DNA from: Siphonodentalium dalli
Taxonomy: Eukaryota; Mollusca; Scaphopoda; Gadilida; Siphonodentaliidae
NCBI GenBank assembly: GCA_032622095.1
Contig: CP136066.1
Coordinates: forward strand, 133,827,917 to 133,891,916
Direction: 5' to 3'
Length of the DNA: 64,000 nucleotides
Under the pieces are notes generated by a model. It was not told where the DNA came from. It searched no databases and saw only the letters and a program-made list of their open reading frames with translations. Below, in pieces: positions 47,101 through 61,710 of this stretch (position 1 is its first letter; every line of letters starts with the position of its first letter). The position numbers and the translations under genes were made by a program.

Positions 47101-50100
47101 TTTTATTTCAGATTCGGGATTGTAATCCTTGGCTGTGCTTTATCTGCACTGACCACACAAACGAGACCCATGGTCTGTTAATCCCAAAACATGATTGGCA
47201 ACAGAGCCTCATCTGTCTGTATGATACTGGATACAGGATCACTGTAAGTACCGGATTATTAAAAGAGTTTTCTTTTACTCAATTATGAAATATTTAGGCT
47301 TAGTTTAATAATTAGTATTTATGAGTATAAATTTAATTATTTTTATATTGATAAATAGGCCTACACAAATTGGGAAAACCTTGGGGAAAACACAGGAGAC
47401 CAGATGATGTCACATTAATATGGCTGCCCGCATCTCACATTAAAGAAATTAGTTAAACTAGTTAAATTACAGCATGATATACATATTTGAAGAATCATAA
47501 TCGTATTATTTTATGGTGATAATGTCATATTTAAACATCACATCATACTTTAGCATTGTCATAGATCTCTGATGAGTATTGTGGACGGACGGAAATTACG
47601 GTTCTCAATCATTGTATAAAACTAAAAGGAGCACTGCTGCACAAGTAGTGAGTTTTGAATGGGACTTAATGTGCAAATCTCCAGTCCAAAATTTTTATAG
47701 AATGCCATATATTACTTTATGACTTTCAGGCAATGTCAATGTGTGATATTTAAATAAGTGGTTAGATCAGATGTAATTTCGGGAGAATTATAAAAAAAAT
47801 AAAAAAAATTTAAAGTGAAAATGGATAATTTTCTTTGCCCAACAATTGTCTGTATATTGTGATTGTTTGGTAATGTTCTTCCTTTTGTTCCTGTACAACT
47901 TCCTCAAGCAAATGTTTTGCTTACAGGGGATCTTCATGAAAATATCCCATTCACAATTTGACCCTTGACTTCTACCTTACAAGTAAGGCAGCTAATTAGC
48001 TTACAATCGATTTTTGTTATGTAAAACTTAAAAAATACTGATTTGCTCTTTCTGATAGTTAATGGCCTTTTTTTGAAAGTATGCCCCTTTAATGATTGTG
48101 CTTTCAGAGTTATTCCAAGTCTACAGTATGTATAGAAATGGAGGTTGTCACCAGGCTAATATATATAGCAATATATATACAAAATGACTGAATCGTGGCA
48201 GATCAGATGTAATTGCGGGAGATTCAAAATTGAACAAAGTGTTGCGAAGTGTGATATGCCGATAATGGCGATTTCCCCATGCATGATTTTACATTTTCCT
48301 GTAGCGTTTTACATATGATATGCATAAAATTACTCTGGCTCTAAAAGTGTTAAGGAATAACCATAGATGAGGTGCCTAGGTCACAGCCAAGAATTATGGT
48401 CCATATATGGAGAATACTTTGGCAGGAGATCCTAATCATGACGTTAACAGTGCCATTCAATTTCTAGCCATTATATATATATATATAGCCAATCCGCTGA
48501 TTGCACTCAGATTGCGAGTTGGGACACCCCACCTAGAAAAAGCCAGTGATATATTCATGGTAATTACACAAGAGACTTCATATATATCGACTCAATGATC
48601 AGTATTATACTTTACTGTGGATTTTTACTTTGACATGGAATTATTTTAATATGTTTTAAAGTTGTTTAATCCACCATAAACCACACTTACATAATAATCA
48701 CATAACTCATGTCTGAATTTGTTACCAGAATTTAAGATCAGGAGAACACACTAATTACTAAATCTAGAAAATGTTGTGCAATAAATGTGGAGTAAAATAT
48801 AAAAAAAAAAGATAATCTGCCATAATCAAATTAAGATATCCTTTTCTAGCTCAACTTTACTTTGTAAAGTTTGAGCTATTGCCATGGCTTGGTATCCGTC
48901 GTGCGTGTGTGTGTGTGTGTGTGCGTGATTCGTCAACAATTTCCTTTAGCACGGGCTACAGTTCGTACCTTTGGTCCGATTATTATTAAATTTGTCATGG
49001 ATGTTGACATTGACATGTAGATGGGAACGAGTCATTTTGGGGTCATTCGGAAAAAAAACATGGCCGCCAGTGGCCATCTTGGATTTCAAAATTCAATCCA
49101 TTAGCACGGGCTACAGGCCGTACTTTTTGTCTTATTGTCATGAAATTAGCACGGGCTACATGTCGTACCTTTAGTCTGATCTTCATAAAATTTGTCATGA
49201 ATGTTAATATTGACATGTAGATGGGAACGAGTAATTTTGGGGTCATTCGGACAAAAAACATGGCCGCCAGCAGCCATCTTGGATTTTACTCTTTGTATGA
49301 CTAAATCCTTTAGCACGGGCTACAGGTCGTACCTTTAGTCTGATCATCATGAAATTTGTCATGGCTGTTGAAATTGGAATGTAGATGGGAACGAGTCATT
49401 TTGGGGTCATACGGACAAAAAACATGGCCACCAGTGGCCATCTTTGATTTCAAAATTTAATCCATTAGCACGGGCCACATGTCGTACTGTTCGTCTGATC
49501 ATCATGAAATTTGTCATGGATGTTAATATTGACATGTAGATGGGAACGAGTAATTTTGGGGTCATTTGGCCAAAAAACATGGCTGCCAGCAGCCATCTTG
49601 GATTCTATTCTTTGTATGACTAAATTCTTTAGCACGGGCTACAGGTCGTACCTTTAGTCTGATCATCATAAAATATGTCATGGATGTTAACAATGGCATG
49701 TAGATGGGACGAGTCATTTTGGGGTCATTCGGGCAAAACACATGGCCGCCAGCAGTCATCTTGGATTTTACTCTTTGTATGACTAAATTCTTTAGCACGG
49801 GCTACAGGTCGTACCTTTAGTCTGATCATCATAAAATTTGTCATGGATGTTAACAATGACATGTAGATGGGAAACGAGTCATTTTGGGGTCATTCGGACA
49901 AAAAACATGGCCGCCAGCAGCCATCTTGGATTTTACTCTTTGTATGACTAAATCCTTTAGCACGGGCTACAGGTCGTACCTTTAGTCTGATCATCATAAA
50001 ATTTGTCATGGCGGTTGAAATTGGAATGCAGATGGGGAACGAGTCATTTTGGGGTCATTTGGACAAAAAACATGGTCGCCAGCAGCCATCTTGGATTTTA

Positions 50101-53100
50101 CTCTTTGTATGACTAAATCCTTTAGCACAGGCTACAGGTCCTACTTTTAGTCTGATCGTCATAAAATTTGTCAAGAATGTTAATAATGACATGTAGATGG
50201 GAACGAGTCATTTTGGGGTCATTCGGCCAAAAAACATGGCCGCCAGCAGCCATCTTGGATTTTACTCTTTGTATGACTAAATTCTTTAGCACGGGCTACA
50301 TGTCGTACCTTTAGTCTGATCTTCATAAAATTTGTCATGAATGTTAATAATGACATGGTGATGGGAACGAGTGATTTTGGGGTCATTCGGCCAAAAAACA
50401 TGGCCGCCAGCAACCATCTTGGATTTTACTCTTTGTATGACTAAATTTTTTAGCACGGGCTACATGTCGTACCTTTAGTCTGATCTTCATAAAATTTGTC
50501 ATGGATGTTAATGATGACATGTAGATGAGAACGACTCATTTTGGGGTCATTTGGCCGAAAACATGGCCGCCAGCAGCCATCTTGGATTTTACTTTTCTCT
50601 TTATGTCTATAAACTAGTATTAGACATTCAACTTTCCACATTCCTAATCGCTCCATTGACTGTAATACATTAAATTATTCCCTTTCCAAGTTGAGCTACA
50701 GTGTCATTGACACTTTCATTGTATGCTTACATCAACACGCACCAGCATTATTCCAATTATTACATATATAGTTCCTAGGTAGGGTCTACTGCGGTTGGTG
50801 TTTGAATGGCATGGTAACTTCATGATTGTACTAAATAAGAAGGCACATATGCACAAACTCTACAGATCTTCAATTCAATGATAATGCTTGTATATACAGT
50901 GAAAACTGCAATTTACGACCACTGCCGTGACCGACCACCTGTCTTTTCTGACCAAATTCCTTTTGTACGGACACTTTTCGCTATATAAACGACCTGCCGT
51001 GAGCGACCTCCTGTCTAACGCGACCACCGGTCGGTATATCGCGGTAAAATCATAAATATTTACTTGTTATGAACGACCAATTCCATCGAAAAAATATATA
51101 ATTTGTGCACGAAAAAGTAAAACTTTAAATGCACAAACTTATGTACTTTTATTCCCCGTTCTGAACCCCCGAGTCTGTCAGTGTTTGATGCGCGTGAGGG
51201 TATTAGTTTCACATGTCAATTAAGGTTACCGGATATTTAAAGAGGTGAGAATTGCTCGCTGGTGATTAAGAATGTATGAATAGAAGACACTTGAGGGTCA
51301 TTTGGTAGATAAAAGGGTTTATGTAAGCAGTTAATTATGGAGTCACTTTGGCCTCGAGAATGGATTCATGTTTACACTTCGCATACGCACGGTCTGGAAT
51401 TGTATTGTTTTACTTATAATCTACGGAAAGCTTAAAATCACCTCGGCTTGTATTTTAACTGCGTTATGTCCACTGAGACAGCCGTAGAAGAAAGACAATT
51501 ATCAGTGAAACCTGCAGCTCAACCAAAGTTAGACAAGTTCTTTCTTGTGAAGCAATAACATTGTGGCAAAATTATTAATGTGTGTGAATAGCTGACCAGT
51601 TTAATTGTTTATAATCAAAGGGGAAATACTCTATTTTTTAATGAATCTAATCCCCCCCTGTTGTGTTCCCCAATCAGTTGCTAAGAAACAACCTTGACCT
51701 TTGTCAAAATGTACCGGTGTTCTGACCACCAGCGGAAAAACCAGTTTTCTCTTGGAATATTTTATTGATTTCTCCCACTATACTTACCCAAATCATAGCT
51801 TGGATCGTTTGTTAGGGATTCATATTTATTAAACAAAAGATACAACAAAATGTTACATTAAATTAACTTGTTTCAATGCTCAATTAGTGATTTTATTTCC
51901 AAAGTTTCTTCCTTCTGACGAAGTTCTGTCACGTGCCCGACGAGTTATCTGGTCAGCTGTTCTATCGTATTATTTTATTTAAGATGCATATACCTGTATA
52001 ATACTCTGTTTTTGTTATTTATTGTTGATATTAAGTATATCTTATTCAAGATTAAACATAAGTAAAACATCTACAAGTGCAGACATCAGATTCAGATACA
52101 ATCATACTCCATAGACACATCCTACTCTGATACATAAATAGGTCAAACCCGTCGTCGCCGACCACTTGTCATGAACGACCATTTATCCTTGGCAAAATGG
52201 GTGGTCTCTCATAACAGGTTTCACTGTAATACTTTTATGACAGGACATCACTGCTTTTATACTTCAGTTTTTAGACTTAACGTCTGTTTCAAGTTGATTC
52301 AATACTAATAAAATAATGATCTTTACTTCTTCTATTTTTAGCCACCAGACTTGTCTTATTTCTCAAAGAAGAAGAAACCTATGAGGGTTCTGTCTCTGTT
52401 TGATGGAATAAGCACAGGTTTGTTTTATCTGTATATTTGGAACTGAATCAGAAGTATTTGCACTGATGAACAAATATTTATGTTGAAGCGTAAATATTTC
52501 CCCTGATTCTGAAGTACAAATAATAATAAGGGTTTTTGCACTACGGCACAAACCATTTGCGATGAAGAGTAAATCATTTATGATAGAGCACAAAATATTT
52601 ACACTGAAGCGCAAATGATTTGTGCTGAAGCCGAAATACATACTTACGTTTCAGCTTGTATGATTTGTGTGCCTCATCCATTCACCATTTTGAAATAAAT
52701 GTGAATATAAGGCTTCCTATACATCTGTACCTTTCTGATCCTATCATCCTAGCTATTTTTATAAAATTGCTTTAATGATTGCCACCACAGGCCACCAGAG
52801 TAAAATCTTTTGTCGTGTTTTTATTGATCATATTGCACTAACAAATTATGTTTATTACGAAGGATTCTTTTTATACCGCCCGCAATGAAGTTATAATGAA
52901 GGGGGGGGGGGTGGTATACTGGAATCAACTTGTCCGTCGTCTGCCCGTCCGTTGTCCAGAGTTTTTCTCAGTCATTTTTGTTATCATTTTCCGTGAAACT
53001 TGGCAGATACCAACCACCATGGGTACCTGTGCACCTGTGATTATGACTTCTGTCCAACTTTTGTTGTGGAGTTATTCCCCTTTTTCGACTTGGAACATTT

Positions 53101-54052
53101 TTGCAACATGCATAATTTTGTCTGAGCTTTTATTCCTACATTTTTCGGTCAAGAGGTTTATGATTAGGGTTAGGGGTTAGGATTGTGCACCTGCAACGGG
53201 AATCTGTTATTTTATTATATTGGCTAAATGTTTACTGACATGTGAAACATCTTAGTGTTTTAAAAACATGGGGGGGGGGGGGGTATCATTAGTCCCATTG
53301 GGACAGTCACACCTCTAGTTAAGATAAATAATTCTTATTCTCAATTTTTTCTTGGACTGGACATTACAGGGACCACATTTAACAACCTTGTTGAAAGTCA
53401 ATAATTTCCTGAACGTTTTGCTGCTGAGAATCTTGCAAGCAGTTACAAATATTTGCCTTTTCTAACTTCAGCCAAATTAGTGTTGGATGAATTGGGAATA
53501 GAGATCCAGTCGATCTTTGCGAGTGAAATAGATGAAGATGCTATCCTGGTATCGCGTTGGAATCATGGAAAGGAAATTATTCAGATTGGTGACATCACAA
53601 AAATCACAGAGTCACAGGTAACAAATGACACATGTGCAGGGTTTCCCAACAAAGGAGTTTCGTTTACTTCTTTATAATATACCCAAGTGGATTATCCTAT
53701 TAGTCCGGTCGTTGAGACTCGATTTTGAGGTGAACCTAGAACAAACTGTTGACAAGCTGGACTGGGGAACAATATATCCAAAATCTACTTTGGGGAATTT
53801 TTTTTAGAGCATTTTGAAAAAAAAGTATTATTTGTGGTTTTAATGTATAATTTTCCGTTCCTTATGAAATATACATTTGAATGCCATTTAAGGTAAAGTT
53901 ATATAGATGGCAGGAATTCTGGAACTATTTTCGCTTTATGTTTTTGTGTATCATTCAGATTAAGAAGATGTGCCCTATAGACCTTGTACTTGGAGGTTCA
54001 CCGTGTAATGACTTCTCAATCGCTAACCCTAACAGGAAGGGCTTTGCACTCG
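1844..54052 (+). CDS. DNMT3: DNMT3-family de novo DNA (cytosine-5) methyltransferase, 14 exons, partial at both ends
   Basis: The product would transfer methyl groups from S-adenosylmethionine to cytosine C5 in unmethylated DNA, in the nucleus. Exons are 1844-2116, 3128-3274, 28811-28912, 29618-29723, 33266-33448, 34524-34565, 36066-36151, 43539-43586, 45964-46028, 46421-46475, 47112-47243, 52342-52417, 53472-53617 and 53959-54052; all have AG/GT borders and matching phases. In the joined 518 residues, PWWP lies at about 95-174 (WWPG, FWFGD), ADD at about 272-395 (GATA-like CxxC pair, then a PHD-like finger), and the methyltransferase domain from about 427, with motif I (RVLSLFDG), motif II (ASEIDED), a GDI motif and catalytic SPCND (Cys503). 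Domain order matches animal DNMT3A/3B; DNMT3L is excluded because the Pro-Cys is present. Odd points: Asp at a PWWP cage position, Ala in place of Gly ending motif I, and a minisatellite made from the last exon. N-terminal exons and motifs VI-X lie outside the window or were not found. Confidence 0.93.
2150..2390 (+). repeat. MITE fragment with TACCATTTATGGTA hairpin
   Basis: A short hairpin near 2157-2173 is followed by a TTGGTATGTGTG, CACAGGTCA, TTCGAATATGGG module shared with 44195-44420 and, in part, 57890-58030. Confidence 0.5.
2391..2821. repeat. Foldback MITE, 431 bp
   Basis: Arms of about 115 bp (2391-2505 and 2705-2821) are inverted copies with about 80-85% identity. Both ends begin CCAGAAAGGGGAAT and include GAGGATCCGGTTGTTGC-like sequence. 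The rest of this intron, to 3127, shows nothing further. Confidence 0.75.
3128..3274 (+). CDS. DNMT3: DNMT3 exon b: PWWP domain, beta-barrel part
   Basis: The acceptor is ttttctcttacag and the donor gtaaga; 49 codons, phase 0 at both ends. It reads [17 protein letters not shown] and later [14 protein letters not shown], the hallmark strands of the DNMT3 PWWP domain, which reads H3K36 di/trimethylation. The residue after the conserved Gly, normally Phe or Tyr, is Asp. Confidence 0.92.
3275..3887. other. Intron stretch, nothing recognised
   Basis: This is the start of the 25.5-kb intron inside the PWWP coding region. I see no exon, RNA gene or clear repeat here. Confidence 0.5.
3888..7725 (-). 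mobile_element. TIR DNA transposon (~3.8 kb) with a decayed gene
   Basis: Inverted termini of about 130 bp lie at 3888-4020 and 7591-7725, sharing TGAACCTAGAA, AATTGTTATAAAGC and ATATCCAAAATC followed by paired CCGCT/CTGCT words. The interior carries a minus-strand coding relic at 4650-6560. The same terminus family bounds the 9252-22078 foldback and occurs singly at 53690-53815. Superfamily and target-site duplication could not be set from the sequence; the ends are approximate. Confidence 0.7.
4650..6560 (-). pseudogene. Decayed transposon-borne gene of an uncharacterised invertebrate family
   Basis: Read right to left, fragments in several frames line up as one protein: [18 protein letters not shown], then [20 protein letters not shown], then KSDVLF followed by [16 protein letters not shown] with a late TQCIPFDQ, then [20 protein letters not shown], then STKDHEH-like and [17 protein letters not shown], then VIADDRS. 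The DNVDHN-TLDG-FHGMG block and the order FDQ-KDHEH-NKSxLI-ADD recall a protein family I remember as common among uncharacterised, transposon-linked proteins in molluscs and cnidarians; the C-terminal part looks like a PIN/FEN-type nuclease fold. Stops and frameshifts are frequent, so it is dead. The family assignment rests on memory of the motifs. Confidence 0.6.
7726..8505. repeat. Intron with a diverged ~145-bp direct duplication
   Basis: Segments at about 8130-8225 and 8275-8370 share AATAGACTTTCCGAA, GAxTCCAAAA and GCTCTTTGCCTTCTAT. Nothing else is recognised in this stretch. Confidence 0.5.
8506..8765 (+). repeat. Family A MITE, single-unit copy
   Basis: It starts TTATATGCCCATTTTTGAAG, has one internal unit (GGTGATAACTTCAG, CAAGTTCAAATTTGAG, AGTTATGGCCC) and ends GCCTTAGCGATGCTCTTG, matching both ends of the ~950-bp copies. 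Nothing is seen from 8766 to 9251. Confidence 0.65.
10093..16923 (+). mobile_element. Pearl/Helentron-like element with ~40 tandem ~164-bp monomers
   Basis: The 5' end is a subterminal inverted repeat (AGCTCAAATTTACTTTG, then TAAAGTTTGAGCTATTGCC) followed by GTCCGTCGTCCGTGTG. The core is about 40 monomers of about 164 bp, each with GCAGCCATCTTGGATTTTAC, TAGCACGGGCTACAGGTCGT, GATCATCATAAAATTTGTCA and GATGGGAACGAG. The 3' end is AGTTGAGCTACAGTGTCATT plus GACACTTTCAT, containing the hairpin AGTGTCATTGACACT. Monomers form higher-order blocks: marked variants recur every 3, 4 or 5 monomers and a 12-monomer shift (~1.97 kb) relates 12550 to 14520. The architecture fits bivalve pearl-type non-autonomous Helentrons. 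It carries no gene. Confidence 0.85.
16982..17924 (+). repeat. Composite MITE of family A, copy 2 (943 bp)
   Basis: It starts TATACACCCGTTTGAAAAAC and ends GCGTAGCTCTTG. It is very similar to 46-1003 throughout. The uninterrupted right arm of the surrounding foldback defines both borders. Confidence 0.85.
18431..20764. repeat. Degenerate minisatellite loop of the foldback
   Basis: Blocks 18480-19320 and 19960-20720 repeat, every ~40-50 bp, variants of CATACAGTCACTCCATGTAT, ACACATACACCTCACC and CATGACCATA. The stretch between them (19330-19955) is unique and holds a 145-codon open frame at 19435-19872 with no recognisable domain; I do not call it a gene. Confidence 0.7.
22079..23460. other. 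Intron stretch with a long G homopolymer
   Basis: A G-run of about 18-20 bases lies near 22112-22132. The rest shows no supported gene. A minus-strand reading near 22850-23000 vaguely resembles a piggyBac-type Cys-rich tail, but too weakly to call. Confidence 0.4.
23780..24010 (+). repeat. Tandem duplication of ~105 bp
   Basis: Two adjacent copies share AAACAATACGT, TAATCACAAGTGTGCA, CCATTGATGAACAT-like sequence and GCATGCATTGC. From 24011 to 25400 nothing is recognised. Confidence 0.65.
25419..27213 (+). mobile_element. 5'-truncated LINE of the L1/Tx1 type
   Basis: Only the end of the reverse-transcriptase polyprotein and a 3' UTR remain. The open frame 25419-26450 reads [33 protein letters not shown] and [20 protein letters not shown]: the thumb/connector region after the RT palm in L1-like ORF2. 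Near 26450 the frame breaks in the middle of a CxxC motif; it resumes in another frame as [13 protein letters not shown] and ends at 26811. A non-coding tail runs to an A-rich end at about 27190-27213. Endonuclease and RT catalytic motifs are absent, so it is dead. The 5' truncation point is not sharp. Confidence 0.8.
27330..27910 (+). repeat. MITE with three ~175-bp tandem units
   Basis: A short foldback leader (TATACCCCC, T-run, AAAGGGGGGGTATAC) and a GTCCGTCCG leader precede three units starting near 27420, 27595 and 27770. Each unit has TCTCAATGAAATTTGGTA, GGATGTTCACTACTATGAGG and AGTTATTCATCTT. A related unit lies at about 46115-46300. From 27911 to 28810 nothing is recognised. Confidence 0.65.
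28811..28912 (+). CDS. DNMT3: DNMT3 exon c: PWWP C-terminal helices
   Basis: The acceptor is a T-rich tract ending ttttttttcag and the donor gtgtga; 34 codons, phase 0 at both ends. It reads [13 protein letters not shown] then ITEILK, matching the helical end of the DNMT3 PWWP domain (KLMPLSSF and IYEVLQ in the human protein). It lies 25.5 kb from the other half of the domain. Confidence 0.85.
28913..29334. other. Intron stretch with a short TA repeat
   Basis: A (TA)n tract lies near 28956-28968. Nothing else is recognised. Confidence 0.4.
29335..29550 (+). repeat. Pearl-like element, 3' end fragment
   Basis: One decayed monomer (ATGGCTGCCAGCAGCCATC) is followed by the typical 3' end (CAAGTTGAGCCACATTGTCA, then CTTTCATTTG). 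Confidence 0.6.
29618..29723 (+). CDS. DNMT3: DNMT3 exon d: linker after PWWP
   Basis: The acceptor is acttccacacag and the donor gtttct; it starts in phase 0 and ends in phase 1. It contains [10 protein letters not shown], comparable to the MIEWALGGF segment after PWWP in human DNMT3A, followed by an acidic stretch. Confidence 0.8.
29940..30150 (+). repeat. Family A MITE, 5' part
   Basis: It begins TTATATGCCCGTTTGG and includes GATGATAACTTTAGTAAGTC and CAAGTTCGAATTTGGGTTCC. It runs directly into pearl-like monomers at about 30150. Confidence 0.6.
30151..31250 (+). repeat. Decayed pearl-like element
   Basis: About seven diverged monomers carry ATCTTGGATTTTACTCTTTG and GGCACACCCTACAG, and the block ends with AGTTGAGCTACAGTGTCATT and GACACTTTCA. 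It is older than the 10-17 kb array, as judged by divergence between units. Confidence 0.7.
31251..33265. repeat. Intron with a local direct duplication
   Basis: About 115 bp at 31465-31590 and 32030-32150 are nearly identical (TTTGTTCTTTCAAGTAACAA, TCCTTCAGGGATTCC). A second pair, 31950-32020 and 32155-32225, shares TGTTATTTTCAACACATC and TTGACCATAACCTCGTTAAT. No gene is recognised before the exon at 33266. Confidence 0.6.
33266..33448 (+). CDS. DNMT3: DNMT3 exon e: linker between PWWP and ADD
   Basis: The acceptor is gttcgtttgcag and the donor gtataa; it starts and ends in phase 1. It encodes about 61 residues, beginning [17 protein letters not shown], with an acidic patch ([10 protein letters not shown]) and a basic patch (RTRRK). 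The end, [11 protein letters not shown], aligns with the YEVRQKCRNIE region before ADD. Confidence 0.82.
33449..34523. other. Intron, nothing recognised
   Basis: No exon, RNA gene or clear repeat was seen between DNMT3 exons e and f. Confidence 0.45.
34524..34565 (+). CDS. DNMT3: DNMT3 exon f: 42-bp microexon entering ADD
   Basis: The acceptor is tggtatattgcag and the donor gtagga; phase 1 at both ends. It reads [13 protein letters not shown], and the split codon restores Asp in front of FCIAC, as in the NIED-ICISC junction of vertebrate DNMT3A. It is accepted because it is the only way to join the flanking exons in frame with a DNMT3-like sequence. Confidence 0.78.
34605..35782. mobile_element. 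TIR element ~1.18 kb, unassigned
   Basis: The ends are inverted: AGGCCACATAAAAAAAGG at the left and CATTTTTATGTGGCCT at the right, each with a nearby GTTTCTCAAGG copy further in. Two minus-strand open frames inside (35502-35209 and 35119-34829) show no domain I recognise. The family and target duplication are unresolved. Confidence 0.6.
36066..36151 (+). CDS. DNMT3: DNMT3 exon g: ADD GATA-like zinc finger
   Basis: The acceptor is ttattcctgtttcag and the donor gtgaga; it starts in phase 1 and ends in phase 0. It reads [11 protein letters not shown], then [14 protein letters not shown]: the two CxxC pairs of the GATA-like finger of the ADD domain, with the conserved HPxFxGGxCQxCK block. Confidence 0.92.
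36660..37310 (+). repeat. Direct duplication of a TACCGGTAATT-rich repeat
   Basis: About 200 bp at 36760-36970 recurs at 37107-37310 (TTACCGGTGAATTGGTCAGG, TGATGACAATCAATCCAATT), offset by about 346 bp. A pearl-like monomer fragment lies between the copies. Similar CAGTAAT words, reversed, occur at 1613-1800. Confidence 0.7.
38530..38785. repeat. Foldback within the inner hAT
   Basis: Arms of about 115 bp (about 38530-38650 and 38665-38785) are inverted copies sharing GCTTTTCTGACAATATACTC and AGATATAACTAT. The centre lies near CATTAAACTATATGCC. Confidence 0.75.
38961..39371 (-). pseudogene. BED zinc-finger fragment of a hAT transposase
   Basis: The 136-residue frame ends with [16 protein letters not shown], then [18 protein letters not shown] and [12 protein letters not shown], the BED finger that binds DNA in hAT transposases (ZBED type). 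The first zinc ligand of CxxC reads Ser (SKLC). The catalytic RNase H-like region and the dimerisation tail are missing. Confidence 0.7.
41253..41510 (+). other. Foreign segment with a start-codon-plus-splice-donor signature
   Basis: A GC-richer stretch lies between pearl-like monomers. An ATG at 41440 opens [14 protein letters not shown] and meets a strong donor (AATAG then GTAAGC) at 41481. It could be an internal first exon or a captured host exon end. The reading frame (ending phase 2) does not fit DNMT3 exon h. The left border shows GGCAGCGAAAGAGTTAA, an end typical of the TTAA element at 60297. Confidence 0.25.
41851..43538. other. Intron, nothing recognised
   Basis: Apart from a short AGCTCAACTTTACTTTGTAC pearl-type 5' end near 42912, no gene or repeat is identified. 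Confidence 0.45.
43539..43586 (+). CDS. DNMT3: DNMT3 exon h: ADD, start of PHD-like finger
   Basis: The acceptor is gaatatgtttcag and the donor gtaagt; 16 codons, phase 0 at both ends. It reads [16 protein letters not shown], matching NCFLECAYQYDDDGYQ, and keeps the acidic pair of the H3-tail and autoinhibitory surface. Confidence 0.82.
43587..44194. other. Intron, nothing recognised
   Basis: No gene, RNA or clear repeat was seen. Confidence 0.4.
44195..45140 (+). repeat. MITE with TACCATAGTATGGTA hairpin, interrupted by a TTAA MITE
   Basis: It begins with a hairpin and a GTCCGTCCG leader, then AAATTTGGTATGTGAGTTT, GAGTTCGAATATGGGTTTGA and GAGTTATGGCCC. Similar modules lie at 2150-2390 and 57890-58030. 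The second half is A-rich. From 45141 to 45963 nothing is recognised. Confidence 0.55.
44475..44974. mobile_element. TTAA-type MITE, 500 bp
   Basis: TTAA flanks both ends (44475-44478 and 44971-44974), and the termini are inverted: AGGGGTACTGTACGCCA and TGGCGTACAGTACCCCT, a perfect 17-bp pair. No coding capacity. TTAA targets are typical of piggyBac and Kolobok families. Confidence 0.82.
45964..46028 (+). CDS. DNMT3: DNMT3 exon i: ADD PHD-like finger
   Basis: The acceptor is taatggtttcag and the donor gtacat; it starts in phase 0 and ends in phase 2. It reads [18 protein letters not shown] then SCKR, and the CTIC block is identical to vertebrate DNMT3. Confidence 0.9.
46421..46475 (+). CDS. 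DNMT3: DNMT3 exon j: ADD PHD-like finger, continued
   Basis: The acceptor is tttcttttacag and the donor gtgagt; it starts in phase 2 and ends in phase 0. It reads [18 protein letters not shown], matching CFCVECVDLLV of human DNMT3A. Confidence 0.88.
46492..47075 (+). mobile_element. Short pearl-like element filling a DNMT3 intron
   Basis: Both ends are present: TTTTTAGCTCAACTTTACTT at the left and a decayed AGTGTCATTGAAACTTTCAT at the right, with about three diverged monomers. It occupies about 92% of the 636-bp intron between exons j and k. Confidence 0.75.
47112..47243 (+). CDS. DNMT3: DNMT3 exon k: end of ADD and linker to catalytic domain
   Basis: The acceptor is gttttatttcag and the donor gtaagt; 44 codons, phase 0 at both ends. 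It reads [15 protein letters not shown], the last CxxC of ADD, then [14 protein letters not shown], matching GLLRRREDWPSRL. Confidence 0.9.
47244..48848. other. Intron, nothing recognised
   Basis: No exon, RNA gene or defined repeat was seen, apart from a short TA repeat near 48475-48486. Confidence 0.45.
48849..50722 (+). mobile_element. Pearl-like element with ~10 monomers
   Basis: The 5' end (AGCTCAACTTTACTTTGTAA then AGTTTGAGCTATTGCC) is followed by a GT-rich leader, about ten ~164-bp monomers close to those at 10-17 kb, and the 3' end AGTTGAGCTACAGTGTCATT plus GACACTTTCATT. It is complete and carries no gene. Confidence 0.85.
50897..52226 (+). mobile_element. pogo/Tigger-type MITE, 1.33 kb
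   Basis: TA flanks both ends; termini are CAGTGAAAACTGCAATTTAC and CATAACAGGTTTCACTG, with CGACCAC words repeated inside both ends (ACGACCACTGCCGTGACCGA; CGCCGACCACTTGTCATGAA). TA target sites and CAGT ends are typical of the Tc1/mariner-pogo group. A transposase C-terminal codon stretch survives at 51466-51558. Confidence 0.78.
51466..51558 (+). pseudogene. C-terminal remnant of a pogo-type transposase with PIP-box-like motif
   Basis: An open stretch of 30 codons ends [12 protein letters not shown] and a stop. QxxLxxFF is the consensus of PCNA-interacting (PIP) boxes; Drosophila pogo transposase is known to bind PCNA through such a C-terminal motif. Upstream, the frame is closed near 51430, so the catalytic domain is lost. 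The ATG at 51466 is probably just an internal Met of the former protein. Confidence 0.6.
52342..52417 (+). CDS. DNMT3: DNMT3 exon l: methyltransferase motif I (SAM binding)
   Basis: The acceptor is cttctatttttag and the donor gtttgt; it starts in phase 0 and ends in phase 1. It reads [13 protein letters not shown] then [12 protein letters not shown]. The split codon with the next exon gives Ala where other DNMT3 proteins have the Gly of FDGxxTG. Confidence 0.92.
52862..53320 (+). repeat. G-run-bounded MITE, full copy
   Basis: It starts TTTTTATACCGCCCGCAATG with a G11 run, then CCGTCGTCTGCCCGTCCG, and ends with a longer G-run followed by CCCATTGGGACAGTCACACC and TCTAG. Its 3' half matches the tandem copies at 1004-1612. 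Confidence 0.7.
53472..53617 (+). CDS. DNMT3: DNMT3 exon m: methyltransferase motifs II-III
   Basis: The acceptor is ttctaacttcag and the donor gtaaca; it starts in phase 1 and ends in phase 0. It reads [21 protein letters not shown] and [11 protein letters not shown], matching LVLKDLGIQV, ASEVCEDSI and YVGDVRSVT of human DNMT3A. Confidence 0.92.
53690..53815 (+). repeat. Solo terminus of the 3888/9252 transposon family
   Basis: It contains ATTAGTCCGGTCGTTGAGAC, GGTGAACCTAGAACAAACTG and ATATCCAAAATCTACTTTGG, matching the outer ends of the elements at 3888-7725 and 9252-22078. It lies in the 341-bp intron between exons m and n. Confidence 0.6.
53959..54052 (+). CDS. DNMT3: DNMT3 exon n: catalytic motif IV with the Pro-Cys
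   Basis: The acceptor is gtgtatcattcag and the donor gtatgt; it starts in phase 0 and ends in phase 1. It reads [20 protein letters not shown] and then KGFALG. Cys503 is the nucleophile that attacks cytosine C6. The next exon should begin inside a Gly codon and encode a GTGRLFFEF-like segment; it was not found. The 3' half of this exon seeds the following tandem array. Confidence 0.93.
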
Positions 54053-54730
54053 GTATGTATCAGTTCACCAAGTACTGACTTCTCCATCACTAACCTTAAT
54101 AGGAAGGGCTTCTCACTCGGTATGTACTATTCACTGTGTAATGACTTCTTCATTGCTAACCCTAACAGGAAGGGCTTCTCACTCGGTATGTACTATTCAC
54201 TGTGTAATGACTTCTCCATCACTAACCCTAACAGGAAGGGCTTCTCACTCGGTATGTACTATTCACTGTGTAATGACTTCTCCATCACTAACCCTAACAG
54301 GAAGGGCTTCTCACTCGGTATGTACTATTCACTGTGTAATGACTTCTTCATTGCTAACCCTAACAGGAAGGGCTTCTCACTCGGTATGTACTATTCACTG
54401 TGTAATGACTTCTTCATTGCTAACCCTAACAGGAAGGGCTTCTCACTCGGTATGTACTATTCACTGTGTAATGACTTCTCCATCACTAACCCTAACAGGA
54501 AGGGCTTCTCACTCGGTATGTACTATTCACTGTGTAATGACTTCTCCATCACTAACCCTAACAGGAAGGGCTTCTCACTCGGTATGTACTATTCACTGTG
54601 TAATGACTTCTTCATTGCTAACCCTAACAGGAAGGGCTTCTCATTCGGTATGTACCTTTGTAGGTTCACCATGTAATTACTTCTCCATTGCTAACCCTAA
54701 CATGAAATGCCTCTCACTAGGTAGGTACCC
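53997..54730 (+). repeat. Exon-derived 66-bp minisatellite (11 copies including the true exon end)
   Basis: Copies of a unit running from TTCACCGTG through the splice donor GTATGT begin at 53997 (the real exon), 54064, 54130, 54196, 54262, 54328, 54394, 54460, 54526, 54592 and 54665. Eight are exactly 66 bp and nearly identical; the first spacing is 67 bp and the last 73 bp. Each copy repeats NDFSIxNPNRKGF-type coding sequence with SLCND in place of SPCND, plus a donor-like CTCGgtatgt. Two variants alternate (TTCATTGCT and TCCATCACT) in the order F-S-S-F, F-S-S-F. Read through from the real exon, translation stops at 54078, so the copies cannot extend the protein. Confidence 0.95.
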
Positions 54731-55056
54731 CATCAGTTTTTTTTTAGTCATAACTGGATTTAAAAAAAAACCAGTTATATTGTAAATACTCTGTAGCTCA
54801 TGGTGGTTTTGTATGCAATTGTATGTCCAGAGCTAAACTCTTCATGAATCCACTAATTGAAGATCCAGGAACAATATTTGGTTGGCAACACATTTCCCAT
54901 TGAGGGTGAAATGGCCACGCCCTTTTTGCGCGAAGTACTACCATCCGCTGTGACTATATCTCCAGAACCGTTTGACATAGGAGGTTGCCTGACCACTCAA
55001 AATTTGCGGAATGGCCACATTATGGGGGGGTCAGTAATACATTTTCATATCCAAAA

Positions 55057-55440
55057 GTCAATGTTTTTAGCTCACCTGAGACAAAGTCTCCGGTGGAGCT
55101 ATAGTCATCACTCCTCGTCGTCGTCCGTCTGTCTGTCCGTCAACTTTTTAAAAAACATCTTCTTCTATGAAACCATCATACCGAATTGGTTCATATTTGG
55201 TGTGGATGTTCCCTAGATGACTCTCATTCAGATTTGTTCAAATGAGGTCACCAAGTCAAATAGTTTTGATGTCAGGACCATAACTATTTTTCCACATAGT
55301 AATTCTTAAAACGACTTCTTTTCTGAAATTGTCGGGCCGAATGGGTTCATATTTGGTATGAGGGTACCTTGGGTGACTGTGGTTCAGATTTGTTCAAATG
55401 AGGTCACTGGGTCAAATGTGGGTGGGGCTATGGACATAAA
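55057..55440 (+). repeat. MITE starting with a GCTCACCTGAGAC hairpin, copy 1
   Basis: It begins TTAGCTCACCTGAGACAAAG then TCTCCGGTGGAGCTATAGTC, an imperfect hairpin, then a GTCCG leader and two diverged units with GGTTCATATTTGGT, TTGTTCAAATGAGGTCAC and GGTCAAAT. Copies lie at 57346-57740 and, partly, 59275-59600. Confidence 0.7.
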
Positions 55441-55549
55441 TCTGAATTTTTTAAAAAAAATTTCAATTTAACTTATTGCTCAATTTAACCAAAAAAAAAA
55501 ATATATATAGATATATTTTATTTTTAATAAATAATTTGTTTTTTATTAA

Positions 55550-56290
55550 ATAAAATATTTATTCCCAGAGGGTGAATTTAGGGGGTTGCTCCACACAGCA
55601 GGCTAGCATAACCAAATACACCCTCTGAGAACCTTATTCTGCTTAGGCCTCATCTTCTGTGAAGTATCTATAGTATCAAATTTACATTGTTAGTTAAATT
55701 TCCCTTCTAGGAAGTTTATATATCCCCTAATTTGCAGAAGATAAAATTCATGATTGAGGTGCCCAATGTGTGAACATCAACTTCAACTGGGGAACTTCAA
55801 TCTTATTCTAGGTCTTCCATAGCAGTTGAAGGCCTTATCAGAATGAGGTCCCCAGAGGGTGAATTTAGTGATACTAGCCCGCTGTGCAGGATAGCGTCAC
55901 TAAATTCACCCTCTGGGGACCTCATTCTGCAAATAACAGACAGACTATTTCAAGGCTTGATTGTATAATACATTGTGTTGCTTGAGGCCAGGCATGCACA
56001 ATGTAGAAACAGACACGCTTTTTGTGATGCTATCCCGCACAGCAGGCTAGCATCACCAAATTCACCATCTGGAGACCTCATTCTGCTTAGGCCTCATCTT
56101 CTGGGAAGTATCTATAGTATCAAATTTACATTGTTGTTAGTTAAATTTCCCTTCTAGGAAGTTTCTATATCCCCTAATTTGCAGAAGATAAAATTCATAA
56201 ATGAGGTGCCCAATGGGTGAATATCACCAACTTCAACTGGGGAAGTTAATTCTTATCCTTATCAGATTTGTGAAAATGGGATCACAAAGT
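55550..56290. repeat. AGAGGGTGAATTTAG foldback family, several copies
   Basis: Variants of GAGGTCCCCAGAGGGTGAAT and CACCCTCTGGGGACCTCATT recur at about 55560-55645, 55850-55930, 56040-56110, 58290-58400, 58785-58870, 59075-59150 and 59605-59690. They alternate with a shared block (TTTGCAGAAGATAAAATTCA, CCAACTTCAACTGGGGAA). The copy at 55850-55930 is a near-perfect inverted repeat with arms of about 31 bp. Confidence 0.65.
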
Positions 56291-56586
56291 CAAATAAGGG
56301 CAGAGCAAGAGACTATTTCACTACATAGTAATTCTTAAAATATGTTTGCAAGAACTAGTTGGCTTATATAGAATGGAATGTTCTTCCTTGACTGCAATGC
56401 AGATTTTTTTTAATGGGGTCACCTGGTCAAATAGGGGCCAAGCGAAGGACAGTTTCCCTCTTAATATGCTTCCTTCACAAGGACCATCAGGTCTATTTTA
56501 CTGATATTTATGATATGTATGAAGGGTTCTTTGGTGTCTGGGATTCAAATTTATTCAGATGGGGTCACCAGGTTAAATAGGGTGGG

Positions 56587-56669
56587 AGAATTACTATAGA
56601 GACATATAGTTATGTCCCTGGTCCCACCGTGGGACCAGGGACATAACTATATGTCTCTATAGTAATTCT
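56587..56669. repeat. Perfect 83-bp palindrome
   Basis: Arms of 40 bp (56587-56626 and 56630-56669) are exact inverse copies around the 3-base centre CCG. The inner arm is CCCTGGTCCCA and its complement; the outer arm is AGAATTACTATAG. The arm resembles the CCATAACT and CATAGTAATTCTTAAAA segment of the 55057 MITE family. Confidence 0.92.
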
Positions 56670-56749
56670 TAAAATGTCTTCTCAAGAGAGTTTGGACTAT
56701 TTAGCTTTGTGTTTTGGGTCCATGGATAATTGGGCTTCAAACATGTTTA

Positions 56750-57130
56750 AATGGTTTTAGAAAAAGGCGCTTGTGAGATTGGAAATTTCCAACAATTGAG
56801 AAAGTTTGAGGTGTCGGTTGTGAAATTCCAACCTAAGACTTGGGAGTCTGGAGCCCGGTCGGGAGGGGACTTGTTGAGCTGGAGGAGGGGGGTGATCAGT
56901 AGTGTACAGTTGGCAATTTCAAGGTGGATTTTCACCAAGCTACATACTTGAAGTCTCTCTAGCCACATATCCTGTTTAAATCTACTTCTTTTAAAGTGAT
57001 TATGAAAAGTGCTGACTGTTTTGGTCTCCAGAGTCCCAGTCTTATCAGTCTTTGCAGTCTGGTGAGCGACCCCACAGTCATTGACTGTCTTGTTTAAGAT
57101 AATTGCCAAAAACCCAAAAAAATCCATTTT
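56750..57130 (+). repeat. Repeat copy shared with 60170-60296 and 61484-61710
   Basis: GCAGTCTGGTGAGCGACC, CACAGTCATTGACTGTCTTG and AAGATAATTGCCAAAAACC occur here and at 61645-61710; upstream parts (CCAACCTAAGA, TGGAAATTT) match both sides of the TTAA element at 60297, which has split the second copy. The first half is unusually GC-rich. Confidence 0.65.
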
Positions 57131-57345
57131 TAAGGGCCTGAACCCCAATTTTGGGGTTCAGCACTTTTATCTTAAAGCTGAGCCCCCAATTTGAATTTTA
57201 TTGATCTATATCCATCGGTGCCACATACAGGTATAATTTCTGTACCATTATCGGATGGGATTGACCTTCCAGGAGCTCTTGACCCTGAAAATCCACATTA
57301 TGGGGGGTCAGTAATACATTTTCATATCCAGAAGTCAATGGTTTT

Positions 57346-57740
57346 TAGCTCACCTGAGACGAAGTCTCCGGTGGAGCTATAGTCATCACTACTCGTCCGT
57401 CATCCGTCCATCCGTCCGTCCGTCCATCAACAATTCTTTGAACATCTTCTCCTCTGAAACCGGAAGACCAAATTGGTTCATATTTGGTGTGAATGTTCCC
57501 TAGGTGACTCTCATTCAGATTTGTTCAAATGAGGTCACTGGGTCAAATAGTTGCGAAGCCAGGGCCATAACTCTATTCCTCCATAGTAATTCTTACAACG
57601 ACTTCTTGTTCAGAACTATTGGGCCGATTTAGCTAATATTTGGTATGGAGGGTCCTTGGGTGACTGGGGTTCAGATTTGTTCAAATGGGGTCACTGGGTC
57701 AAATAGTGGCAGAGCTAGGGACATAACTTAAAAAAAAAAA
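57346..57740 (+). repeat. MITE starting with a GCTCACCTGAGAC hairpin, copy 2
   Basis: It has the same hairpin end, a GTCCGTCCGTCC leader and the same two internal units as the copy at 55057. A module of another family (AAATTTGGTATATGAATTTT, GAGTTATGGCCC) follows at 57890-58030. Confidence 0.7.
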
Positions 57741-58059
57741 AATTTAATTTTTGCATTTTGACCTTTAAGTTTTGTTTAGGACACATCACAGCCTCATATT
57801 TCTTACCTAGATTTTTCTTAGCATGTTCTTCATCTGTATGGATTTTGGTATTGTTTATTTGACCCCTTCCACTCTTGTTTTGATATAGAATTCATCCAAG
57901 ACAGGATTACTCAAACATTTTTCATCTGATCAACACCAAATTTGGTATATGAATTTTTGACACTTATATACAGATCAAGTTAAAATATGGGTTTGATCCG
58001 ATATATTTTAACAGAGTTATGGCCCTTTATAATTCACACCTCTTTGCTATGCACTATTA

Positions 58060-59230
58060 ATTTTTAAGAGAACACTGAAGCTTGTATTATTGAAAAAGCC
58101 AATTTATCATAGTGTGGTCACCTGATACTCTTGCTGAAGACTGCTTGCTTCAGACCAGTTTACCATCTGTCATTACAAGACATGACATTAGCTAAACAAC
58201 TATTCTACCAGAGTCTACAAGAATAAATAGGAATAGTCCATTGTTCATTTCTCCAAGCCTGGACATAGTGTGTCTGACATTTGTAGAATGAAGTCCCCAG
58301 ATGGTGAATTTAGTGTTGCTACCCCATACAGCAGGCTAGCATCACCAAATACACCCTCAATTACCTTATTCTGCTTAGGCCTCATCTTCTGGGACAATTT
58401 TTGAAAAAAGTGACACCATTATAACATCTGCAGAGTTATGAAACTTTACTCTTTAATGAAATTATGGAAACATTCTACCCTCCCCCACCCACCCCCACAA
58501 CATGGCCCAGACCCAACCCTGCCATCAACCAACATCCCTTCCAAGCCATATCACCTCTCAATTTAATACCTCTTCTCACCACAGAGGCATATATATATAT
58601 GTAAAGGCACAGGTCATTAATTATATAAACTCGCCAGATGACATGTATTATTCTAATCTAAACATATCTGTAGCAATTTAACAACAAACTGGTGCTCCCT
58701 GGTTAGGTGATGACTGACATTCAATGATACTGTGAATGGCTTTGATTTCTGGAATAGTGTGTCTGACATTTACATAGTGAGGTCCCCAGATGGTGAATTT
58801 AGAGTTGCTACCCCATACAGCATGCTAGCATCACCAAATACACCCGCCAGGGACCTAATTCTGCTTAGTCCTCATCTTCTGGGAAGTATCCTAAGTATCA
58901 AATTGACAGTTTGATTTAGTCACTTTTCCACCTGTTCAGTTTCAATGTCCCCCTAATTTGCAGAAGATAAAATGCATAATTGAGGTGCTCAATGGGTGTG
59001 TATCACCAACTTCAACTGTAGGACTTCAATCTGTTCCTTGGTTTTATTGGCCATTGAGGCCTAATCAGATTGGGGATGAATTTGGTGATGCTAGCCTGCC
59101 TTACAGAATATTGTCATTAAATCCACATTTTTGGGACCTAATTCTGCTAATGTCAGACATACTAAATTCAGGTTTGGCCATTTCATATTATTTTTTTAAT
59201 CACCACTTATCCAGATGAAATCATACGACT
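58060..59230. repeat. Mixed repeat region, no gene
   Basis: Diverged copies of the AGAGGGTGAATTTAG family and its companion block fill most of it. A C-rich tract lies near 58478-58500. No continuation of the DNMT3 coding sequence was seen. Confidence 0.5.
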
Positions 59231-60296
59231 AATATTCAAAGAAAAATGGGGGGGGGGGGTATATATTGGATTAAATTTGTCTTCTATCTGTCAGGCTTCC
59301 ATCCGTCTGCCTGTTGAGATGTCTATCCATCCATCTATCAACAATTGATTTCTTCTCCATATTAAAAGACGGAATGTGTTTATATAGTTCAGTGTGCATG
59401 TTCCCTAGGTGTCTAGATTTGTTCAATTAAGTTCATCACATCAAATTCATGTAGGTGCCAATCCAGGGCCATAACTCTTTCCCTCCATAGTAAGTCTTAA
59501 AACAGTTTTTTCTCAAGAACCATTAGGCCTGTATAGCTTATATTTGGTATGGAGGGGCCTTGGGTGACTGGGGTTCAGATTTGTTCATGGGGTCATTTTT
59601 AGGAAATGAGGTCCCCAGAGGGTGAATTCGGTGATGTTAGTCCACCTTGCGGAATATTGTCATTAAATTCACCTGCCAAGTTCAGACACTAAATACAGAC
59701 TCGGCTGTTCCAATATTAGTTTCTTAACCAGCACTTATCCAGGTGAAATCATACCCTGATTTTTCAAAGAAAATTGGGGGGTATATTGATATTACTAGAT
59801 GAATGGATCTCATAGATGAGGATTCACATTTGTTCTAATAGGGGCAGAGATAAGAGATTTAACTCTCCTCTATGCTGTTTGGTACTGATATAATAATATT
59901 GCTTTCTAGACAGCCTGGGTGGGGGCAATGTTTGAGGCAATGGGGAGGGAGTGTAGAGGGGTGGAGATTTGACCCCCTATTTTGATCAAAAGTTAAAAAT
60001 TTCATGCCCTAGTTGTAGATTAGATGTTCACACCAAAAATAAGTTAGAACTGTTCTCGTAGTTTGGTTTGATTTTCTAACATGTATGTTTTTAAACCATC
60101 AGTCCATATGTTTCTACTTCAGGTTAAACTGTTGGACCGAATTGGCCACATATTTGAACTTTATGGGGGTGTCAGGTTGGTAATTATCAAACGTTTGAAA
60201 GCTTGAAGTACAGCTGGTACCAGTCGTAAAATTCAACCTAAGAGGAATGTACAAAGTGATTTTTGTGAACTTAGTACTGTGGTATGGTTGTCCTCT
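59231..60296 (+). repeat. G-run repeat and partial copies of neighbouring MITEs
   Basis: A G-run at about 59249-59258 is followed by a CATCCATC leader and units like those at 55057 (GGTATGGAGGGGCCTTGGGT). A second, shorter start (AAATTGGGGGGTATATTG) lies at about 59770. Confidence 0.5.
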
Positions 60297-61483
60297 TTAA
60301 CTCTTTCGTTGCCGAGCTAATTTTACACCTAAATTGCCGGAGAATTTATGAGAAAACTGATTTTATTGTGGAAAAGTATGATACAATAATAGTCTTCTTC
60401 TTATGAAATAATGTTTCAAATATCAAGGACATGTATGTATGTGATTAGCCGGTGAATATTTTGCCGAAGAATATTCATGACAATTAAGGGGCATAACTCC
60501 TTGTAACCCAAGGGAAATAACTCCAAATAAGGATTTTTTTGCAATAATCCAATTGAAAAATGGCCCACAACCTGCTATATTCAATATTGGTTTTCTGAGA
60601 CAGTATTCCAACGATGATGATCTGATAAATCTTTCTACTGTCTTTCTCATTTTAAAAAACTTGTAAGAGTAAATTAGGGTCTAGTTCTGGTATAGCTGGA
60701 CCATATGTGACGAGCTACACAATGCAGGAGCCGATTTAGACTTTAGTTGCGACAGTTTACTATGAAAATAGCTAGGTTTTTTAATTGAGGAAAATGGCAA
60801 TTTTGACTGTCAAAAAACAAAACAAAAATTGTGATATATAATTAAATCTCTAACTACAAGCTTATCATCATTGTGCTATAAATAAAATAACAAAAATGAC
60901 ACATATGCATGTGGTCTAAACTGTAACTGAGGCACGCTGGGGCCTGTGGGAGTTCATAATCACGCCGTTTGTTTTAGCTGTGAATTACGTTTTTACCTTG
61001 AAAAATAGGTGATTCATTCAGCAAAAACGGCAATTTTGACTATTAAAAAAACTAATAAAACAATCTAAAGTACACATAATCTTTATTGTAATGTCAGGTT
61101 GTCATACTATCATGTTTAAATTAGTTAATGCATTGGTAAAATGCAGATCTTTCATATAAATAATTGTCTAAAGATATTTTTCTGAAATTGTCGGCCATTT
61201 TGGATTTCCGACTGCGGATCTTACATTATGTTTACAAACTTATTTCATTATTTTTATTTTCAAACGTCTTAAAAAGGATTAAAATTCAGATATATACTGC
61301 AGAATTTAATTAGAAACAATTAAAACAATAATTTTATGAAACTTGAAAAACTTTTTTATTGTTGTCATACAGTTGTGATCAAAATAATTACGGTTACAAT
61401 TATGGCCGATAATATCGGCCCTGGCAATTTACCGACACCACATTTGGGCCGATAATATCGGCCCCTGGCAATCAAAGAGTTAA
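60297..61483. mobile_element. TTAA-type element, 1.19 kb
   Basis: TTAA lies at both edges; inverted ends read CTCTTTCGTTGCC and GGCAATCAAAGAG. Near the right end the palindrome GGCCGATAATATCGGCC occurs twice (61404-61420 and 61447-61463). It interrupts a repeat whose uninterrupted form lies at 56750-57130. No transposase was recognised. Confidence 0.75.
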
Positions 61484-61710
61484 AAGGTAATAGGTTGGAA
61501 ATTTGTCAGTGATGTGCAATTAGAATTTCAAGGCGAAGAACCCTGCTCATTTGAGAACATCCAGCTATATATGTCCATGTTTAGAACTTAAGTGATTCTG
61601 TCAAGTACTGATTCTTGTAGTCTTCAGAGTCTCTGTCTTCTCAGTCCTTGCAGTCTGGTGAGCGACCCACAGTCATTGACTGTCTTGTTAAGATAATTGC
61701 CAAAAACCGA

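Follow-up and report, generated by a model that had tools for sequence, protein, structure and literature searches.

The locus raises two questions: how ten further splice donors came to lie behind a catalytic exon, and what they mean for the gene that carries them. The first-pass annotation had held that the exon end coding the Pro-Cys motif of DNMT3 is repeated ten more times together with its donor, so that the exon "has become a minisatellite". The window is the whole 64-kb stretch of DNA analysed, on C6.

The host gene

The exon in front of the array is identified by homology as the catalytic PCN exon and its host gene as DNMT3, as had been proposed. The exons matched the human DNMT3A/3B structures, with an E of 7.5e-78 for the joined catalytic part, and Pfam DNA_methylase and PWWP both scored above the cut-off. 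The PWWP-domain exon probably belongs to the same gene as the array. The joined ADD pieces reached an E of 1.4e-4 and 22.2 bits with Pfam ADD_DNMT3, under the curated cut-off of 26. Joining the catalytic exons gives an open reading frame that includes motif I, PCN, ENV and the C-terminal RSWSVP region. The exons and exon pieces are:

3137..3277, + strand: PWWP-domain exon (tblastn to human DNMT3A; Pfam PWWP E 7.8e-8, above cut-off)
36059..36151, + strand: ADD-domain exon, first zinc-finger part (tblastn to human DNMT3A)
45958..46028, + strand: tentative ADD-domain exon piece (weak tblastn match, E 3.2; donor GAG|gtacat at 46028 placed by eye)
47124..47222, + strand: tentative ADD-domain exon piece, ADD end (weak tblastn match, E 0.24)
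52342..52417, + strand: catalytic exon with motif I (tblastn; open and in frame when joined to the next exons)
53472..53617, + strand: catalytic exon ending ...ITESQ (tblastn; open when joined)
53959..54052, + strand: catalytic PCN exon, motif IV (tblastn; true donor CTCG|gtatgtat)
79844 in window numbering (C6 extension): exon after the PCN exon, 25.8 kb downstream and in frame to 54052

Units and donors of the array

Tandem Repeats Finder reported 53997-54728 as a tandem repeat with a period of 66, 11.0 copies, 92% matches and a score of 1140. The units were delimited by cutting at the donors. The repeat unit consists of the last 56 bp of the PCN exon plus 10 bp of the intron, and ten extra tandem units (core period 66 bp) follow directly beyond the true exon end at 54053-54720. 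Their number and position are thus as annotated, and the unit sequences agree with a derivation from the PCN exon and its donor.

to 54052, + strand: unit A, the last 56 bp of the true PCN exon
54053..54119, + strand: unit B, 67 bp, degenerate, containing TGA 54076-54078
54120..54647, + strand: array core U3-U10, 8 x 66 bp, made up of types T and C arranged T C C T T C C T
54648..54720, + strand: unit D, 73 bp, diverged, with the donor TAG|gtaggt and without an acceptor-like AG

The array occupies the intron, within its first 670 bp, and at both copies of the locus described here the PCN exon remains intact. The copies do stem from the exon, but to say that the exon has become a minisatellite is an overstatement. 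Nor is the Pro-Cys motif generally repeated: the eight core units translate to SLCND, with Leu in place of Pro, and unit B to SPSTD, whereas unit D reads GSPCNY against GSPCND in the true exon. The core consists of two 264-bp halves of four units each that differ by one base, and by this pattern is a duplicated four-unit block. The exact core unit count at C6 is known from one assembly alone. Unique flanks attach to units A and D, and the end of unit D continues into the intron. At the founding junction several short microhomology overlaps fit by eye, with no single one fixed.

In the 95 kb examined, the identical donor TCG|GTATGT occurred ten times including the true one, always in the array. 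The word TCGGTATGT was found ten times on the + strand, every time within the array and with the true donor counted; the minus strand of these 95 kb gave 0 hits. The longer word CTCGgtatgt (CTCGGTATGT), said to be carried by each copy, was present in 9 of the 11 units and 8 of the 10 extra ones; U10 has TTCG and D has CTAGgtaggt. Nine decoy donors share bases -3 to +6 of the true donor fully, and their predicted U1 pairing is -6.9 kcal/mol versus -7.4 for the true donor. The best predicted pairing in the array belongs to unit D (-11.7), and therefore a preference for the first donor is not guaranteed. Among the eleven donors only the first joins the next exon in frame, where the product would read ...GFAL-D-GTGILF across the junction. 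The claim that any downstream donor leads to the stop at 54078 held throughout: TGA 54076-54078 terminates all ten possible exon extensions, with the same predicted truncated protein.

Matching decoys, a stronger donor in unit D and one stop shared by all extensions would suit a regulatory array, in which competing donors send a set share of the DNMT3 pre-mRNA into truncated, decaying transcripts. The enzyme dose would then be tuned by the number of units, and this number does differ between the window and the second copy on C1. We nevertheless regard such regulation as unlikely, though worth keeping in mind. The core units are without sign of constraint, and two of the three differences between types T and C change an amino acid. 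Moreover, a four-unit version stands beside intact exons, although that C1 copy is without the 3' exons of DNMT3.

A shorter array on C1

A new finding is a partial DNMT3 copy with a shorter array on another chromosome, C1. It covers about 36 kb, is about 99.7% identical to the window and is identical to it in all six exon-bearing stretches compared.

27964..64000, unstranded: duplicated segment, corresponding to C1:172103729-172139572 (minus strand) and extending in C6 to window-numbered position 64261
54143..54602, + strand: 460-bp stretch whose removal gives the C1 array

Allowing up to 3 mismatches, a 31-base word from the core matched 13 times in the 2.23-Gb genome, 10 times in the window array and three times in the C1 copy, and the reversed word, as a control, gave 0 matches. 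Together with the donor counts in the 95 kb, this excludes a chance arrangement. The C1 array has four units versus eleven in the window; therefore, the array length has changed. This bears out the suspected variability of copy number within one assembly, not among several individuals. Removing a single 460-bp stretch from the window array reproduces the C1 array exactly; with this length, taken from the alignment and the only one tried, one start works among 54050-54399. Since 66 does not divide 460 evenly, unequal exchange is disfavoured for that one deletion.

At its start the C1 copy abuts exactly 100 consecutive N, as is frequent in scaffold gaps, and its 99.7% identity could fit two haplotypes. 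The array might then be collapsed or mis-expanded and the C1 copy only a misplaced second haplotype, which we judge improbable. The 64-kb window is free of N, units A, B, the U10-type end and D match exactly between the copies, and beyond the other end of the block C1 continues N-free for 15 kb into unrelated sequence. Were C1 the other haplotype, length variation would be more directly shown, not less. That the array is wholly an assembly artefact was rejected, because a second locus holds a shorter array whose first and last units are the same.

Acceptor-like words and the origin of the array

The acceptor-like word CCTAACAG, also ascribed to each copy, was found in 9 of the 11 units and 8 of the 10 extra ones; unit B bears CCTTAATAG in its place, and unit D bears CCTAACATG and therefore has no AG. 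Because nine units each combine AG|GAAGGG with TCG|GTATGT, they could serve as 17-nt microexons, separated by spacers of 50 and then 8 x 49 nt. With 3, 6 or 9 of them included, the frame would be kept and 17, 34 or 51 residues added behind the catalytic loop, stop-free to the end of the next-exon stretch used. Such a birth of introns and microexons is very improbable: the implied 49-50-nt introns are very short, only about 8 bases lie between the CTAAC word and the acceptor AG, and descent from coding sequence can account for the open frame. It is scarcely credible that the array, with its 10 downstream donors and a stop, is one sign of a dying pseudogene, given the open catalytic exons and retained motifs.

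We consider it likely that the array is a near-neutral exon-intron-boundary minisatellite that arose when a splice junction was duplicated in tandem; the first donor is presumably the productive one. The duplicated stretch would have covered the PCN exon's 3' end together with the initial intron bases, the left copy keeping the rest of the exon and the right copies becoming intron. The repeat pattern suggests that the outer units B and D then decayed while the inner ones were expanded and homogenised, duplication of the 264-bp block being the last visible expansion step. Comparison of the two loci points to a single loss of 460 bp at the other copy, if the direction was that of deletion. The spliceosome would mostly use the first donor, and leakage to later ones would yield one common truncated, inactive protein or decayed mRNA. 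Since all leakage would give this same outcome, the array may be near-neutral or mildly costly.

Repeats of an exon end plus intron start are already known from human genes, and the DNMT3 array is another case. Lievers is said to have found in 2001 that the units of a VNTR in CBS act as alternative donors, and the minisatellite of Turri, Cuin and Porter reportedly lies in gene 6-16/IFI6 and has 12-bp units. By its title, the latter report (Turri, Cuin and Porter 1995) concerns a splice-donor minisatellite in an interferon-induced gene with donors in a transcript, whereas the DNMT3 array is known here from DNA alone. By its name, the human CBS 31-bp VNTR c.1444_1467+7(16_21) combines 24 bp of exon end with 7 bp of intron, like the DNMT3 unit; passages of PMC2630376 give 16-21 repeats, varying between chromosomes, and single-base differences among units. 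It differs in its shorter unit, more copies, documented population variation and gene. The duplicated segment in the case outlined in PMC4974935 also reaches across an exon-intron boundary and brings splice signals with it. A newly formed intron was observed in that case, whereas the DNMT3 copies, read from genomic sequence, sit within an existing one. CBS c.844_845ins68 is likewise a splice-junction duplication in a working gene, a 68-bp one from which normal mRNA is still made (PMC2630376). The same source speaks of two 'donor' sites, and the title of Romano 2002, cited there, of 3' splice sites. That insertion adds one extra intron 7/exon 8 junction, compared with ten exon-end junctions in the DNMT3 array.

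The DNMT3 gene and its exons

When the joined catalytic part of the gene was compared with protein chains by phmmer, DNMT3A chains were matched at E 7.5e-78, and the best chain without a DNMT3 name reached 1.5e-18. The Pfam model DNA_methylase (PF00145) scored 78.7 bits on the same joined part with a cut-off of 22. The methyltransferase domain is of the C5 type and closest to DNMT3A/3B. Upstream, the PWWP piece exceeded the Pfam cut-off, and the joined ADD pieces (ADD_DNMT3) gave 22.2 bits, below the cut-off of 26. The PWWP, ADD and catalytic exons follow each other in the DNMT3 order on one strand and putatively belong to the same gene. The gene model comprises the exons listed here.

Exons of the DNMT3 gene model (window numbering; positions above 64000 continue on contig C6 beyond the window)
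3137-3277, plus strand, PWWP exon, translated match to DNMT3
36059, plus strand, ADD piece, translated match to DNMT3
45958, plus strand, ADD piece, weak translated match
47124, plus strand, ADD piece, weak translated match
52342-52417, plus strand, catalytic exon, translated match to DNMT3
53472-53617, plus strand, catalytic exon, translated match to DNMT3
53959-54052, plus strand, catalytic exon with the intact PCN motif, translated match to DNMT3
79844, about 81200, 85160 and 91620, further catalytic exons on C6, beyond the window

The window covers C6:133827917-133891916 on the plus strand of a 2.23-Gb genome in 9 contigs, whose gene content is that of an animal. This genome was then searched with the human DNMT3A catalytic domain at E up to 10. 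Ten matches were listed, seven at this locus and three at a second, partial locus on contig C1. Seven of the ten had E > 0.01 and were accepted because of their order, strand and place. A genome search with the Pfam model missed the DNMT3 exons of the window and listed two matches, both on contig C9. In these searches, which were not exhaustive, the window locus was the only complete DNMT3 found in the genome. The stretch C9:57846183-57857326 (minus strand), with the only two PF00145 matches listed, is putatively another cytosine methyltransferase gene, of the DNMT1 or DNMT2 kind.

The array and its splice donors

Tandem Repeats Finder (TRF) reported a 66-bp period with 11.0 copies at 53997-54728. 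When cut at the donors, the array consists of unit A (the true exon end, to 54052), B of 67 bp, eight core units of 66 bp (U3-U10) and D of 73 bp, and the ten further copies that the first-pass annotation had placed behind the true exon are thus B, U3-U10 and D. A core unit is composed of 10 bp of the intron-start type and 56 bp resembling the exon end. The core units are of two types, T and C, which are 3 bases apart and are arranged as T C C T T C C T, with one extra change in U10; the two 264-bp halves of the core are one base apart. The word TCGGTATGT occurs 10 times on the plus strand of 95 kb, always within the array, and not at all on the minus strand.

A predicted donor TCG/GTATGT is found in 10 of the 11 units, and the eleventh has TAG/GTAGGT. 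The words CTCGGTATGT and CCTAACAG are each present in 9 of 11 units, so that the donor and acceptor-like words, which had been ascribed to each copy, are a property of most units and not of all. The catalytic Pro-Cys had also been described as repeated; this does not hold for the core units, which read Ser-Leu-Cys where the true exon reads Ser-Pro-Cys.

At the true donor, the exon end CTC G/gtatgtat joins the next exon start AC GGT ACA to the in-frame sequence ...GFALDGTGILF. Extension to any later donor passes the TGA at 54076-54078 and ends in the same short protein end (10 of 10). As had been proposed, the use of a downstream donor would therefore truncate the protein, as predicted from the sequence.

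Donor strength was calculated with ViennaRNA as a duplex with the 5' end of U1. The true donor gave -7.4 to -7.5 kcal/mol, varying slightly with the flanks, the nine decoys with the same nine bases -6.9 kcal/mol and the donor of unit D -11.7 kcal/mol. Five other placed donors of the gene ranged from -5.7 to -10.4 kcal/mol, a sixth (that of the 85141 exon) being left out. By this model the decoys are about equal to the true donor in predicted strength, and D is predicted to be better, which argues against a simple preference for the first donor by strength. An effect of the decoys on splicing, as first suggested, is a reasonable idea. A bolder and very unlikely one is that the array units act as 17-nt microexons. 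Nine of these can be enumerated, with introns of 49-50 nt, and the frame would be kept if 3, 6 or 9 were included.

Selection for an open frame was considered and dropped. The array is traversed by a stop-to-stop frame of 231 amino acids and a second open frame of 250 amino acids, but both can be explained by descent from coding sequence, and two of the three differences between the unit types alter the amino acid. In this descriptive comparison, nothing hinted at selection on the array. A dispersed repeat was dismissed as well, since 13 of 13 matches of a genome-wide pattern search, and all 8 matches among the best candidates scored in a DNA search, lay in the window array or its C1 counterpart.

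A shorter array on contig C1

Outside the window, the array unit was found on C1, another contig of chromosome size. A block of about 36 kb, from window position 27964 to 64261 in window numbering, matches C1:172103729-172139572 (minus strand) with 99.7% identity; the alignment, in two pieces, contains 48 mismatches and 60 gap bases. All six exon-bearing stretches compared were identical. Four units make up the C1 array (A, B, a single core unit with a U10-type end, and D), compared with 11 in the window, and the two loci stand in one assembly.

The C1 array equals the window array minus one 460-bp deletion; one fit was obtained among the starts 54050-54399 tried for this length, with 60 bases per end of the compared stretch left out. 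Since the U10 variant base is common to both arrays, the longer array as the ancestor needs the fewest events, and the C1 array was probably shortened. Unequal exchange was rejected as the cause, as 460 bp is no multiple of 66 and fits a single deletion without microhomology; an unequal exchange of 462 bp with a 2-bp insertion could also account for the difference. Judged from the aligned sequences, the array changed between 11 and 4 units, in one direction or the other, over a time in which single-base changes reached about 0.13%.

The C1 block may be a partial duplication or else a misplaced second haplotype, and the array length has changed under both readings. One end of the block is a run of 100 N and the other the edge of a multicopy repeat; in each of the 4 other copies of this repeat that were compared, the similarity breaks off at this point to within about 5 bases. 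That the C1 copy is part of a long homologous stretch was rejected from paired sampling: none of 8 samples taken at distances of 20 to 200 kb from the window matched its C1 counterpart (> 200 bp, > 93%). Two C6 samples outside the window matched non-paired C1 pieces, which we took for repeats, and one of four further C1 samples opposite the window matched, inside the block. The search with the human DNMT3A catalytic domain listed no later catalytic exons on C1, and the block stops before them.

The repeat that abuts the C1 copy at the break (C1:172098400-172103729) carries an array of the 12-bp word TACCGGTAAAAT close to its end and has several copies elsewhere in the genome that are 98-99% identical (best 40 of 1432 candidates scored). 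It looks like the end of a young mobile element. High-copy repeats also lie at C6:133892178-133893377, right of the break and just past the window, and left of window position 27964.

Known arrays and the possible role of the DNMT3 array

Arrays of this type are already known. The human CBS 31-bp VNTR c.1444_1467+7(16_21) repeats, in variable number, a unit that joins the end of an exon to the start of the intron, and a 68-bp junction duplication in CBS still allows normal mRNA to be made (PMC2630376). Multiple splice donors provided by a minisatellite are the subject, by title, of Turri et al. 1995, and intron gain by a tandem duplication crossing a boundary is described in PMC4974935. Like the CBS VNTR, the DNMT3 array repeats the exon end plus the intron start in tandem, with a predicted donor in every unit. 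A full-text literature search gave no such array in DNMT3 by title, and we make no firm claim that it is unreported. This array merits testing because of the gene and exon concerned and because it exists in two lengths.

The simplest account of its origin would be that the splice junction was duplicated in tandem, after which the inner units expanded and the outer units decayed. Several short overlaps fit by eye as candidate microhomology at the founding junction.

The locus is a natural experiment on the choice among donors, of which ten are identical at -3 to +6 and lie 66-67 bp apart; the working enzyme would come only from the first, the gene is the only complete DNMT3 found in the genome and two array lengths are present in one assembly. 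Should the decoys be in use, a mutable minisatellite would have a direct effect on how much of an epigenetic enzyme is made; should they be idle, the array would be a measure of the protection that the first donor receives from its position or from exon definition. We consider it very unlikely that the array is a length-dependent splicing rheostat, in which more decoys would lead to more poison transcript and less de novo methylation and, in an extended version, 17-nt microexons would sometimes be spliced in by threes, making the loop behind the catalytic cysteine longer. If it were true, a fast-mutating minisatellite would set the methylation capacity between individuals.

Two other arrays, with a 164-bp repeat, lie between the DNMT3 exons at window positions 10801-16797 (36.7 copies) and 49146-50593 (8.9 copies). 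The CpG observed/expected ratio over window positions 1-64000 was 0.63, a slight depletion, consistent with some methylation in the germline.
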